Assembly (NCBI GenBank): GCA_913055615.1
Contig: CAJXKK010000010.1
Span: 1-64,000, forward strand
Origin: an uncultured Ectothiorhodospiraceae bacterium
GTDB taxonomy: Bacteria > Pseudomonadota > Gammaproteobacteria > XJ16 > Halofilaceae
DNA: 64,000 nucleotides
Direction of reading: 5' to 3'
The notes below the pieces were generated by a model, which saw only the letters and a list, made by a program, of their open reading frames with translations, did not search any database and was not told the DNA's origin. The translations under genes were made by a program, and so were the position numbers. Numbering within the stretch: the first letter of the stretch is position 1; the number at the start of each line of letters is the position of its first letter. This document shows, piece by piece, positions 17,849 through 62,773 of the stretch.

Positions 17849-18081
17849 AACGCCTGCTGATCGGTCTGGTCCGGGGCTACGCCCGCTATATCAGCCCGTT
17901 CACCGCGCCCAGCTGCCGCTTCTTCCCGAGCTGCTCCGAATACGCCGAGGAGGCGATCCGCCGCCACGGCGCGCTCCGCGGCGGTTGGCTCGCCCTGCGC
18001 CGGATCCTGCGCTGCCATCCTTTCTGTCCGGGCGGTTATGACCCCGTGCCCCGGTCGCATCGGGATCGCGGGGACCTTTGA
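17845..18081 (+). CDS. yidD: YidD, membrane protein insertion efficiency factor
   Basis: A 78-residue YidD with the family core [21 protein letters not shown] and [13 protein letters not shown]. YidD assists YidC in inserting inner-membrane proteins, probably as a peripheral amphipathic protein. The gene is usually found between rnpA and yidC near the replication origin; here it is translationally coupled (ATGA) to cysS. That location is unusual and might mean a second copy or a rearrangement. A palindromic element and a strong two-way terminator follow. Confidence 0.93.
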
Positions 18082-18130: not shown

Positions 18131-18211
18131 GATCGCGAGCGAGCTCGCTCGTGCACACCAGACAGCGGCTGCGGTGTGCCGAAGCCTGTAGGAGCGAGCT
18201 CGCTCGCGATT
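18131..18211. repeat. REPIN: paired inverted REP-like palindromes, copy 1
   Basis: Two palindromic units in inverted orientation, left unit beginning GATCGCGAGCGAGCTCGC and right unit GTAGGAGCGAGCTCGCTC, separated by a short spacer with CGGTGTGCCGAAGCCTG. The same 81-base arrangement recurs, reversed, at 29684-29764. The unit resembles the REP sequences of Pseudomonas (GTAGGAGCGAGCTTGCTCGC). Such elements are spread by RAYT transposases, none of which is in the window. Confidence 0.85.
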
Positions 18212-18232: not shown

Positions 18233-18265
18233 AAAAAAAGCCCGGCTGTGAGCCGGGCTTTTTTT
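18233..18265. terminator. Bidirectional intrinsic terminator between yidD and tRNA-Glu
   Basis: A perfect 8-base stem GCCCGGCT/AGCCGGGC with a 3-base loop, flanked by seven A on one side and seven T on the other. It can stop leftward transcripts after tRNA-Glu, only 4 bases past its CCA end, and rightward ones after cysS-yidD. Confidence 0.92.
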
Positions 18266-18268
18266 GTA

Positions 18269-18343
18269 TGGCGTCCCCAAGGGGATTCGAACCCCTATTA
18301 CTGCCGTGAAAGGGCAGTGTCCTAACCGTTAGACGATGGGGAC
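18269..18343 (-). tRNA. tRNA-Glu (anticodon TTC)
   Basis: A 75-base tRNA with the CCA end encoded. The acceptor arm GTCCCCA pairs with TGGGGAC, the anticodon loop reads CTTTCAC (anticodon TTC), and the T arm AGGGGTTCGAATCCCCT is canonical. It closely resembles other bacterial tRNA-Glu. It has its own near-consensus promoter 67 bases upstream and a terminator just downstream, so it is a single-gene unit. Confidence 0.98.
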
Positions 18344-29683: not shown

Positions 29684-29764
29684 GATCGCGAGCAAGCTCC
29701 CTCCTACAGGCTTCAGTACACCGTAGCGGTCGTATGATCTGTAGGAGCGAGCTTGCTCGCGATC
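29684..29764. repeat. REPIN: paired inverted REP-like palindromes, copy 2
   Basis: Left unit GATCGCGAGCAAGCTCC, shared spacer part CTACAGGCTTCAGTACACCG, right unit GTAGGAGCGAGCTTGCTCGC. It is the same 81-base element as at 18131-18211 in reverse orientation, with scattered changes. It sits between the rhombosortase gene and htpG, which converge. Confidence 0.85.
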
Positions 29765-31895: not shown

Positions 31896-31929
31896 CCCCA
31901 GGTGCCGCCCACCCGCCTGGCCAGGCAAG

Positions 31930-32149
31930 TCAAAGGCGACCTCTCGCCAAGACGCCACGCGCGCCAAGGAACGTCAAAATCCGTAAGGAATGGTTGGTTG
32001 GACGTACTGATGCATGGCATCGGGTGGGGCCGCGTTGCCGTCCTGATCGTCCCTTTGCCCCGGCGGAAACCTTCCGGCAGATTAATACCCCTGCATTCTT
32101 TATCGCCTTTCTTGGCGCGCGTGGCGTCTTGGCGAGAGATCGCCTTTGA
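31930..32149. repeat. Inverted-repeat element, 39-bp arms (CTTGGCG family)
   Basis: Arms 31930-31968 and 32111-32149 are reverse complements over 39 bases with one mismatch, with core CGCGTGGCGTCTTGGCGAGA. They enclose 142 bases with no gene. The arms themselves repeat CTTGGCG. It lies between ogt and the htpG promoter. It looks like a non-autonomous mobile or REP-like element; no transposase or target duplication was recognised. Confidence 0.8.
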
Positions 32150-32162
32150 ATTTCCTGCTCGT

Positions 32163-47413: not shown

Positions 47414-47616
47414 AAGAACCACAGATGGACACAGATGAACACAGATAAAAAGCCATTTGCGCACGGTCATTCTCATGGCCGGCGGATGAAAACCATTCAT
47501 CTAACGGACCCGCGACGCGGTCAATACCAGCCGTCAGATACCGTTTCTCAAATCTGTGTTCATCTGTGTTCATCTGTGTTCATCTGTGTTCATCTGTGTT
47601 CATCTGTGGTTCTTTT
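47414..47616. repeat. Inverted-repeat element with 10-bp tandem units (CATCTGTGTT)
   Basis: Left arm 47414-47446 contains three 10-base units of ACACAGATGA type; right arm 47551-47616 contains six head-to-tail units CATCTGTGTT in a perfect 10-base period ending CATCTGTGGTTCTT. The outer 33 bases are reverse complements with one mismatch. The element fills the pheA-hisC gap and interrupts an otherwise tight operon. No gene is seen inside. Confidence 0.85.
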
Positions 47617-47654
47617 ATGATGTATGCGGCGACTCGGTCACGTCGGCAGAGGCA

Positions 47655-56208: not shown

Positions 56209-56237
56209 TTGAGTCGCACGTGAACAACGCGTAATGT
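56209..56237 (+). promoter_or_regulatory. Promoter before the cobalamin riboswitch
   Basis: TTGAGT (56209-56214), 17 bases, TAATGT (56232-56237). It would start transcription at or very near the first base of the riboswitch. Confidence 0.5.
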
Positions 56238-56243
56238 GAACGA

Positions 56244-56453
56244 ATTGCTTCAGGTGTTTCGCCGCGTGACCGCGCGGTGACTGAAACGGGAAGCCGGTGC
56301 GTGCACGTTTTACAGCGTGCGCAAGTCCGGCGCTGCCCCCGCAACGGTAAGCGAGTTGCGGTTCGATCACACGCCACTGGGTTTCGACCTGGGAAGGCAT
56401 CGAACCGCGGGCCATCGGCCCACTCGCAAGCCCGGAGACCGGCCTGGAGCAAT
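56244..56453 (+). ncRNA. Cobalamin riboswitch controlling btuB-tonB
   Basis: A 210-base class I cobalamin aptamer. P1 pairs ATTGCTTCAGG (56244-56254) with CCTGGAGCAAT (56443-56453). Core elements follow in order: AAACGGGAAGCCGGTG, AAGTCCGGCGCTGCCCCCGC, CAACGGTAAGC, GGGAAGGC and the B12 box AAGCCCGGAGACCGGCC. The btuB start is 122 bases further on; no terminator T-run is seen, so control is probably at translation initiation. Adenosylcobalamin would repress. Confidence 0.95.
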
Positions 56454-56575
56454 ACGCAGGATGGCGCGGGGGGCGTCATGCGCGTGCCGCCGTGCAGGCC
56501 GCACCGTCTCGTTCTCCCGTTCTATCCGAACCTCGATATCAAGAGGCGCGGGTGAGCGCCTGGAGAACAACCCCG

Positions 56576-59409: not shown

Positions 59410-59489
59410 GTAGCCCGGATGGAGTGAAACGGAATCCGGGGACACGATTACACGCATCCCCCGGATTTCGCTGGGCTCCATCCGGGCTG
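59410..59489. repeat. Inverted-repeat element (GTAGCCCGGATGGAG type)
   Basis: Left arm 59410-59441 begins GTAGCCCGGATGGAGTG; right arm 59459-59489 ends CTCCATCCGGGCTG. The arms are reverse complements with a few mismatches around a 17-base loop. Elements of this type recur in many proteobacterial genomes. It lies between tonB and cobO and could partly separate their transcripts. Confidence 0.8.
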
Positions 59490-59507
59490 ACCGACAGGGA
59501 TACTGCG

Positions 59508-60980: not shown

Positions 60981-61760
60981 ATGGCAGCGAATTACGCAGC
61001 GGAAACCGTCACCAGCGTCTACCACTGGAACGAGAAGCTGTTCAGCTTCCGCACGACGCGTGATCCCGGTTTCCGGTTCCGCAACGGCGAGTTCGTCATG
61101 CTCGGTCTCGAGGGCGAGCAGAAACCGGTCGTGCGGGCCTACAGCATCGCCAGCACGAATTACGAAGAGGAACTCGAATTCCTCAGCATCAAAGTGCCCG
61201 ACGGCCAGCTCACCTCGCGCCTGCAGCACGTCCAGCCGGGCGACCGCATCCTCATCAGCCGCAAGCCGACCGGCACCCTGGTCCTCGACGACCTGCGCCC
61301 GGGCCGCCGCCTGTTCCTGCTCGCAACGGGCACCGGCTTGGCGCCATTCCTCAGCCTGATCAAGGATTTCGACACCTACGAGCAGTTCGACCAGGTCATC
61401 CTGTTCCACGGCGTGCGCTATGTCAGCGAACTCGCCTACCGCAGGTACATCACGGAGACGCTGCCGAACGACGAGATCTTCGGCGAGATGGTGCGCGGGC
61501 AGCTGCGCTACTACCCGGCCGTCACCCGCGAGGAATTCCCCCACCGCGGCCGCGTGACCGATCTCATCCGCAACGGGCAGCTGTTCGAGGATCTGGGTAT
61601 CGAGCCACTCGACCCGGCCACCGACCGCGCGATGGTCTGCGGCAACCCGGCGATGCTCAGCGACACCTGCAGCCTGCTGGATTCGAAGGGCATGACCATC
61701 AGCCCTCGCCGCGGTGAGCAGGGGGATTATCTGATCGAGCGGGCGTTCGTGGAGCGGTAG
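60981..61760 (+). CDS. fpr: Ferredoxin--NADP reductase
   Basis: A 259-residue FAD enzyme. FAD binding is RAYSIAS, NADP binding is ATGTGLAPFLS, and MVCGNPAMLSDT precedes a C terminus FVER like that of the Azotobacter-type bacterial reductases. It moves electrons between NADPH and ferredoxin or flavodoxin. GGAGG lies 13 bases before the ATG. It comes 197 bases after bluB, and might supply reduced flavin for it; this is conjecture. Confidence 0.93.
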   Translation: MAANYAAETVTSVYHWNEKLFSFRTTRDPGFRFRNGEFVMLGLEGEQKPVVRAYSIASTNYEEELEFLSIKVPDGQLTSRLQHVQPGDRILISRKPTGTLVLDDLRPGRRLFLLATGTGLAPFLSLIKDFDTYEQFDQVILFHGVRYVSELAYRRYITETLPNDEIFGEMVRGQLRYYPAVTREEFPHRGRVTDLIRNGQLFEDLGIEPLDPATDRAMVCGNPAMLSDTCSLLDSKGMTISPRRGEQGDYLIERAFVER

Positions 61761-61931
61761 GAAAGGGCGAAGGGCGAAGGGCGAAGGGCCATAGGGCGCA
61801 GGTTGCGTTGAATACCGACTATACCCAATGGGTCGAGGCAGATTCCATCGTCACGGATTAATGCTGCCCGGGAGCGAATCCTTCGACGGTAGGCCGCCCT
61901 CGGCCCTTCGCCCTTCGCCCTTCGCCCTCTT
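61761..61931. repeat. Inverted GGGCGAA heptamer repeats between fpr and pldA
   Basis: Left arm 61764-61790 is (AGGGCGA)n-type tandem repeats ending GGGCC; right arm 61902-61928 is its 27-base reverse complement built of CCCTTCG units. They enclose about 110 bases. The arms begin right at the stops of the two converging genes, so read-through from either side would form a long stem. Confidence 0.85.
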
Positions 61932-62773
61932 CAATTCAACAACGCAAACCCGATCCCGATCCGCGTGCGCTTGTCGCGGAACGTCTCCAGGCTCTCGCCG
62001 TAGCCGCTGAACAGCTGCGCGTACCAGTACCCGCTGCCACCACCGGTCGGCCAGGCGTAATCAAGGCGCAGTGCACCGTGGTGATCCGAGAACGAGTAGC
62101 GGCTCATTGCGGACAACCGCTGCCCGTCATCGAACGTGTATTCGAGCCGCAGTTCGTGGTGGCCGTAGTAATCGACGATGCCGGGGTTGTCGTCGCCATC
62201 CGGGTCTTCCGGCGTCGACGGTTCACCATCGGGTACACGTGACCAGACCTTGAGCGAGCCGGACCAGCGATCCTGATCGAACCACGCCCGGACGTAGGTA
62301 CGATCCCAGCTGCGTGAAGCCGGCTGCTCTTCGCCGTTGGACTCGTGCTCGAACCCGATATCGAGTGCCAGCCAATCCGGCCGCAGACGCCCTGGACGAA
62401 AGCGGTACCAGATCTCGGGATTGTAGTTGGTCTCGCGGAATGGGCGCGAGTTCTCGTCGTCGAGCCAGCGGAAATACGCGGTCTGCGTGTAGGCGACATA
62501 CACGGGGGTGCGGGCGACCTGATACCGAAAGCTCAACTGGTATTTGAACTCGACATCTTCCGAACCCGCGGCATCATCACTCCACGTGATCGGCAAGGCG
62601 TAATTCGCACGGTAGAGTGACAGCCCCTCGGGGAGCTGAATCGTCGCCAGATCATCCGCGGCTGAAGATGCGCCGCCATCATTCTCGGATGCCGCGGCCG
62701 TCTGCATCGAGAGCCCGACGAAGATCCAAAACAGGCAAAACGCTAACCGCGCGCATTCACCAGTTGTTCGCAC
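61931..62773 (-). CDS. pldA: Outer-membrane phospholipase A
   Basis: A 280-residue outer-membrane barrel enzyme that removes acyl chains from phospholipids in the outer leaflet. After a signal peptide (cleavage near AAA-SE) come YNPEIWYRF, the catalytic FEHESNGE (His143, Ser145) and SRSWDRTY. E. coli has Asn156 as third residue of the triad; here the aligned residue is Asp157. Start GTG 62773 is the only likely start and lies inside the 3' end of btuF. Its link to the B12 genes is positional only. Confidence 0.87.
   Translation of the reverse strand: MRTTGECARLAFCLFWIFVGLSMQTAAASENDGGASSAADDLATIQLPEGLSLYRANYALPITWSDDAAGSEDVEFKYQLSFRYQVARTPVYVAYTQTAYFRWLDDENSRPFRETNYNPEIWYRFRPGRLRPDWLALDIGFEHESNGEEQPASRSWDRTYVRAWFDQDRWSGSLKVWSRVPDGEPSTPEDPDGDDNPGIVDYYGHHELRLEYTFDDGQRLSAMSRYSFSDHHGALRLDYAWPTGGGSGYWYAQLFSGYGESLETFRDKRTRIGIGFALLN

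Follow-up and report, generated by a model that had tools for sequence, protein, structure and literature searches.

Two inverted pairs of REP units in the window, by which we mean the whole 64,000-nucleotide stretch of DNA analysed here, are very probably REPINs of the GTAG-1/PF18 kind, members of a genome-wide population spread by a REP-associated tyrosine transposase (RAYT) of the type encoded on contig 61 of the same genome. Copy 1 (18133-18209) consists of two inverted 22-bp REP units with their GTAG tags facing inward and a 33-bp spacer between them (Table 1). In the terms of the accessible part of the GTAG-1 study (PMC3733652), inward tags make this a tail-to-tail (TT) dimer. In copy 1 the left arm is worn: it has GCAC in place of the GTAG tag and three mismatches to the core.

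Table 1. Coordinates of the two REPIN copies in the window
Feature	Position	Strand	Remark
Left REP arm, copy 1	18133..18154	-	Worn tag, GCACGAGCGAGCTCGCTCGCGA read on the - strand
Spacer, copy 1, 33 bp	18155..18187	.	Resembles the copy 2 spacer and G002 units L176 and L175
Right REP arm, copy 1, GTAGGAGCGAGCTCGCTCGCGA	18188..18209	+	CT directly before
Left REP arm, copy 2	29686..29707	-	1 mismatch to core
Spacer, copy 2, 33 bp	29708..29740	.	
Right REP arm, copy 2, GTAGGAGCGAGCTTGCTCGCGA	29741..29762	+	

A sequence-only reading of this DNA had described an 81-base inverted REP pair after yidD and a reversed copy, spacer included, about 11.5 kb away, and both statements were borne out. A repeat search of the window returned blocks 18131-18210 and 29685-29764, 80 nt each, 83% complementary and 11474 nt apart, which were the longest among the inverted repeats listed. 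The spacers of the two copies were 73% identical in the better of two orientations, a likeness that ranked 3rd of the 276 spacer pairs formed by 24 window-type units of the genome. Spacers of two units in G002, a genome of the same genus, were also similar to that of copy 1 (76% for L176 and 71% for L175), and the copy 2 spacer was 71% identical to that of L175. From these likenesses we conclude that spacer subfamilies exist. That the whole pair moves as a unit is suggested by the likeness of spacers within a subfamily together with the full-unit matches in G002 described below. Both window copies, the two checked in this respect, are extragenic and lie between gene ends. Copy 1 is located between yidD (end at 18081) and a convergent tRNA-Glu gene (18269-18343, - strand), and copy 2 between a rhomboid-like gene and convergent htpG; the protein gene names were read from the sequence.

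The core GTAGGAGCGAGCTNGCTCGCGA was present in 65 exact copies in the genome that carries the window (G000), and the reversed control gave 0. A wider pattern in which the middle of the stem was left free had 110 copies, again with 0 in the control. As this 3.0-Mb genome is a draft of 87 contigs, all such counts are lower bounds, and the element is clearly not confined to the two copies in the window. The core can be written GTAG-GA-GCGAGC-TT-GCTCGC-GA, i.e. a tag, two extra bases, a 6-bp stem, a loop and a tail, usually followed by T in window-type units. This fits the GTAG-1 family, whose REPs have a GTAG tag, two extra bases (GW), a short stem and loop, and a tail of 3 bp. The significance of the REP lies in the genome-wide count of the 22-mer and not in the count of a 12-mer within the window: with up to two mismatches, the 12-mer GTAGGAGCGAGC matched the window 9 times compared to a shuffled mean of 7.34, so that the motif of the sequence-only reading stood as a 22-mer across the genome but showed no over-representation as a 12-mer in the window.

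Stretches around the exact copies contained 42 REP pairs of two kinds, 22 inward as in the window and 20 outward, as well as 18 single units. Start distances were 52-58 bp in 19 and 42-58 bp in 21 of the 22 inward pairs, and 110-145 bp in 17 of the 20 outward pairs. A closely spaced inverted pair of REPs is thus repeated as a unit, which is what characterizes a REPIN. The window-type units used for further comparison (24 in G000 and 31 in G002) came from the stretches examined, with at most four mismatches per arm, and do not constitute a census. In both genomes combined, the base that followed the arm was T in 101 of 110 cases for window-type units, and for outward-type units it was A in 31 and T in 29 cases, with ACCG following 25 of 60 arms. 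CT directly preceded the tag in 92 of 170 arms (27/48, 30/62, 17/32 and 18/28 in the four sets), although this dinucleotide may simply belong to the conserved sequence of the repeat.

GC-rich hairpins near gene ends might also be ordinary bidirectional terminators or chance inverted repeats, and a terminator-like hairpin does occur next to tRNA-Glu (18239-18254). That hairpin is separate from copy 1, and a terminator scan gave no such site on the REP arms of copy 1. The uniform start distances of the inward pairs also speak against an origin of this kind, and 65 exact 22-mers versus none in the reversed control rule it out for all practical purposes; we regard its probability as close to nil.

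For each copy, folding with DNA parameters predicted a single long hairpin (-35.2 and -34.5 kcal/mol), mostly owing to the inverted arms. Folding of the spacer beyond that expected from base composition was weak, with mean z values of -0.54 and -0.41 compared to -0.15 in control windows (p 0.01). In-register spacer pairing exceeded that of shuffled sequences at the four outermost bases (0.49 versus 0.26), and there was no excess at positions 5-12 (0.245 versus 0.255). The case for spacer folding as a selected trait is therefore weak, and this weakness counts against the reading that we prefer.

A search of the genome with the Pfam Y1_Tnp model gave five matches, three of them above the cut-off. 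Two RAYT genes were recognized with the NCBIfam model REP_Tyr_transpos (NF047646; cut-off 80), one on contig 61 (142.6 bits) and one on contig 8 (169.8 bits), so that the RAYT for which the sequence-only reading had proposed a search is indeed present. The contig-61 gene (L041 3611-4084, - strand) encodes a protein of 157 aa that matched the E. coli TnpA-REP structure 4ER8 with an E value of 1.3e-6. It contains an H-x-H motif at 70-72 and a tyrosine at 129 that aligns with the 4ER8 tyrosine counted as 115, which we take to be the catalytic residue. The gene is bracketed by inverted REPs at L041 3560 (+) and 4209 (-) that share the frame of the window REP; the two arms are 33 nt long, 91% complementary and 605 nt apart. 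A RAYT flanked by REPs of its own is thus present, although the stem variant differs from the commonest class: it is GGGC/GCCC, a sister of the commoner GAGC/GCTC, which counts against the reading that we prefer. The flanking REPs are followed by ACC, like the 25 of 60 outward-type arms with ACCG, and the window-type arms mostly by T, as noted above; the link between this RAYT and the window sub-type is therefore indirect. Neither flanking arm has CT before the tag.

The interval that holds this RAYT lies between argA and a thioredoxin-like gene, both named from their sequences. The RAYT is absent from the matching interval in both G001, another genome of the same genus, and G002. In G001 the gap is about 50 bp and lacks a REP, and in G002 it contains other repeat DNA; no precise insertion junction could be drawn for this interval from the comparison of G000 with these two genomes. 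Short GGGCGAA-like runs occur beside the RAYT in G000 and in the matching G002 interval, and inverted runs of GGGCGAA-type repeats were also seen at 61737-61955 of the window.

Relatives of the contig-61 RAYT (E<=1e-15) and the wider REP pattern were then tabulated across 369 genomes of the class. The pattern occurred in 25 genomes, a RAYT relative in 50 and both in 17. A RAYT relative was thus present in 17 of 25 REP-positive genomes compared to 33 of 344 others (Fisher odds ratio 20, p 6e-11), in a table that was compiled by eye from two listings and that treats genomes as independent, which they are not. When the genus of the window was left out of this by-eye table, 15 of 22 REP-positive genomes had a RAYT. 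In the full set, all six genomes with at least 45 REP copies had one. Against the preferred reading, six of the 15 genomes with at least three copies were without a RAYT (nine had one), and nine of the 25 REP-positive genomes held a single copy each. The REP-positive genomes in which no relative was found at E<=1e-15 are G001, G019, G090, G206, G261, G286, G309 and G334. One of them, G019, has 14 exact REP cores, 12 on one strand and some in tandem at only 32-53 bp, and no relative of the contig-61 RAYT was found there at E<=1e-5.

REPs of the same frame were also concentrated around RAYT genes. The frame GTRGGAG-(12-16)-CGA occurred within 400 bp of 30 of the 66 RAYT-relative loci; it was matched 167 times in 49 kb near these genes versus 28 times in 46 kb at a distance of 1 kb. 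The other 36 loci had other tagged hairpins or none that was detectable. The RAYT of Pseudomonas plecoglossicida (L097) has on both sides a REP identical, letter for letter, to the one that flanks the contig-61 RAYT, and the two proteins are 50% identical. In a quick tree of relatives found by similarity, in which 33 of 63 inner branches were open, the contig-61 RAYT fell into an open fork of 10 rows that includes two Pseudomonas rows, L091 and L097.

Such resemblances bear on the idea that the REP/RAYT system was imported from Pseudomonas, which we consider improbable. The shared flanking REP and the open fork are compatible with import, as are the identity of the core with Pseudomonas class PF18 (accessible part of PMC3686654) and the fact that the top 16 of 60 named RAYT matches were Pseudomonas. 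However, identity to the named Pseudomonas proteins did not exceed 54%, which makes a recent import from them unlikely, and the contig-61 RAYT lay at the end of a long branch (0.78), with the remaining 18 Pseudomonas rows in a set that excluded it (98% support). Taken by itself, the quick tree decides neither for nor against a transfer. The nearest genomes of the class without a species name reached 53-57%, and Pseudomonas may be among them.

The size of the population was uneven within the genus. One 22-mer had 63 exact copies in G000, 113 in G002 and 0 in G001, and the wider pattern had 110, 147 and 4 copies, respectively. Full-length matches to the 81-bp unit (75-85%) were found at no fewer than 29 places in G002, with 40 of 409 candidates scored. 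At least 11 of the 24 window-type units of G000 had a counterpart of the same type at the orthologous position in G002, with both flanks matched; the other 13 were compared with the examined G002 stretches only. These shared positions point to inheritance rather than recent movement and thus argue against the preferred reading: about half of the examined units, lying at places common to G002, look inherited. A clean empty site for a window-type unit was not seen in the aligned G000/G002 stretches, where either REPs were present in both genomes or the differences were larger than the unit; this result also counts against the preferred reading.

At the 11 orthologous sites the arms were 95% identical, the spacers 58% and the adjoining 60-bp flanks 63% and 70%; because free end gaps were allowed in part of the flank measurements, the values for flanks and spacers should not be compared strictly. 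For 733 non-orthologous pairs, mean spacer identity was 54% when one orientation was compared and 57% when the better of two was taken, with 49% for shuffled sequences. Apart from one pair at 88%, orthologous spacers were hardly more alike than unrelated ones (means of 0.578 in one orientation for the former, and 0.539 in one or 0.571 in the better of two for the latter).

G002 also differs with respect to the RAYT. At E<=1e-15, the contig-61 RAYT has a single relative there. This relative carries one in-frame TAG, the REP at its flanks is another one (GTAGGTCGGGCTTC...), and in the quick tree it pairs with L161, a sequence of another family (95% support). By sequence comparison, then, the G002 assembly keeps REPs with no close intact match to the contig-61 RAYT, and G001 also gave no close match to it. 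The 113 exact copies in G002 beside this one relative count against the preferred reading. The upkeep of arms together with the turnover of spacers in G002, seen in a small sample of 11 sites, may reflect selection on the arms, a RAYT that acts in trans, recent loss of the RAYT or assembly gaps.

Conserved arms beside diverged flanks, arms kept in the G002 assembly, and the position of both window copies between convergent features would also be expected of immobile relics that serve the host in 3' mRNA stabilization, termination or protein binding and today are passed on by inheritance alone. We regard this explanation as possible but doubtful, since copies of the 22-mer vary widely within the genus and the spacer subfamilies imply earlier copying. 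It is nonetheless compatible with past mobility, and both readings can be true. Another explanation, which we consider unlikely, is that fixed REP positions serve as exchange sites and not simply as places where units insert and then decay. Arms would stay uniform and spacers would be replaced even where, as in G002, no close intact RAYT is present; exchange would then proceed by conversion between copies or through the action of a RAYT in trans.

The yidD side of copy 1 differs in the related genomes. In G002, yidD is followed by about 1.5 kb of extra DNA, then by a window-type unit whose spacer is different, and then by a truncated end of tRNA-Glu; the same contig has an intact tRNA-Glu about 75 kb from there. 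The unit has extra DNA on both sides and is not one of the 11 orthologous sites. A synteny break was considered less likely here, because the truncated and intact tRNA-Glu copies point to an inserted element; an element was likely inserted at tRNA-Glu in G002. In G001, about 3.5 kb separates the parts that match yidD and tRNA-Glu. The tRNA-Glu gene at 18269-18343 looks like an attachment site.

Our preferred reading, a REPIN population spread by a RAYT, can be stated as a mechanism. The 81-bp REPIN would be a tail-to-tail dimer of GTAG-1-type REPs with a variable 33-bp spacer that forms one hairpin in single-stranded DNA, and the population most likely spread as a non-autonomous element. The RAYT, a single-strand HUH/Tyr transposase, would recognize the GTAG-tagged hairpin, cut at a neighbouring CT and move the element by cut and paste. 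The candidate RAYT for the window REPINs is the contig-61 gene. The analysis shows the unit, its copy number, the RAYT with the REPs beside it, and the joint occurrence of this RAYT type and this REP frame across genomes. Cleavage, the strand involved and mobility itself are inferred, and the contig-61 RAYT, rather than one since lost, is the presumed maker of the copies.

Several published systems resemble this one; the statements that follow reflect the accessible portions of the papers cited. The PF18 REP class of fluorescent pseudomonads, GTAGGAGCGAGCyyGCTCGCGA (Nunvar et al. 2013, PMC3686654), is listed there for Pseudomonas extremaustralis. The cores of the window genome fit this string with a TT or TC loop, form inverted doublets and are accompanied by a RAYT. 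Differences are that the host here is probably not Pseudomonas, given that the genomes compared included two others of its genus and no further member of its family or order, and that the contig-61 RAYT is flanked by the GGGC/GCCC sister sequence. A change of REP class is termed 'orthoswitch' by the same authors (PMC3686654), and the GGGC/GCCC REPs would fit such a switch. The GTAG-1 family (Di Nocera et al. 2013, PMC3733652) shares the GTAG tag, unpaired GA, 6-bp stem, TT loop and short 3' tail, as well as both dimer types, TT as in the window and HH, with TT spacers variable as a rule; it differs in host lineage. REPINs of P. fluorescens SBW25 (Bertels and Rainey 2011, PMC3116915) likewise are extragenic inverted REP doublets that are repeated together with their spacer and linked to a RAYT. 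However, SBW25 has 1,422 extragenic REPs of a different sequence compared to about a hundred here, and its doublets show distance peaks at 71 and 110 bp, whereas inward start distances in our genome are mostly 52-58 bp.

TnpA-REP proteins of E. coli (group 2) and of group 3 share the HUH motif and tyrosine, a GTAG-tagged hairpin and CT beside the REP (PMC8266576). The E. coli enzyme is reported to cleave at CT 5' or 3' of the REP, and E. coli REPs have bulged stems (PMC8266576). In contrast, stems here are short and perfect, which fits the description of group 3, found mainly in Pseudomonas with short, generally perfect REPs (PMC8266576). REPINs, GTAG-1 REPs with both dimer types, variable TT spacers and RAYT-flanking REPs are thus already described (PMC3116915, PMC3733652). 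The present data place a Pseudomonas-type REP population together with its RAYT in another lineage; they extend the known range of an otherwise ordinary system. The published model assumes that REP populations need a RAYT to persist, and overrepresented REP classes without a cognate RAYT, said to be quite frequent, are explained there by loss of the RAYT or by mutations in the REPs beside it (PMC3686654). The three genomes of the window's genus, one with copies and a RAYT, one with copies and no close intact RAYT, and one with only four wider-pattern copies and no close RAYT match, constitute a natural test of that requirement.

Other tagged families were observed in the same genome. A second GTAG-tagged inverted pair, GTAGCCCGGATGGAG..., lies at 59410-59490 of the window and has a worn right tag. 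The pattern GTAGCCCGGATGNAG has 78 copies in the genome (control 0), seven of them within 30841-32016 of contig 11, around another RAYT-like gene. A third tagged family, GTAGGCCGGYTTT, has 75 copies (control 0); it flanks the 167-aa RAYT on contig 8 (L038 514-1214) and also brackets a RAYT-like gene of contig 11 (L040; C11:53344 and 54001). A longer Y1_Tnp protein of 244 aa (L036 5071-5805, contig 8) scored 70.7 bits, below the RAYT cut-off of 80, and its gene has inverted repeats with TCAGAGTAAA at its flanks in place of GTAG-tagged REPs. The window also contains a 50-nt inverted repeat at 31922-32157, whose arms are 92% complementary and separated by 136 nt; its CTCGCCAAGACGCC-like motif recurs at the borders of several outward-type pairs and of single REPs. 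A 10-bp unit, ATCTGTGTTC / ACACAGATGA, is repeated in both direct and inverted orientation within the short stretch 47414-47618, and a cobalamin riboswitch was detected at 56235-56461 (114 bits).
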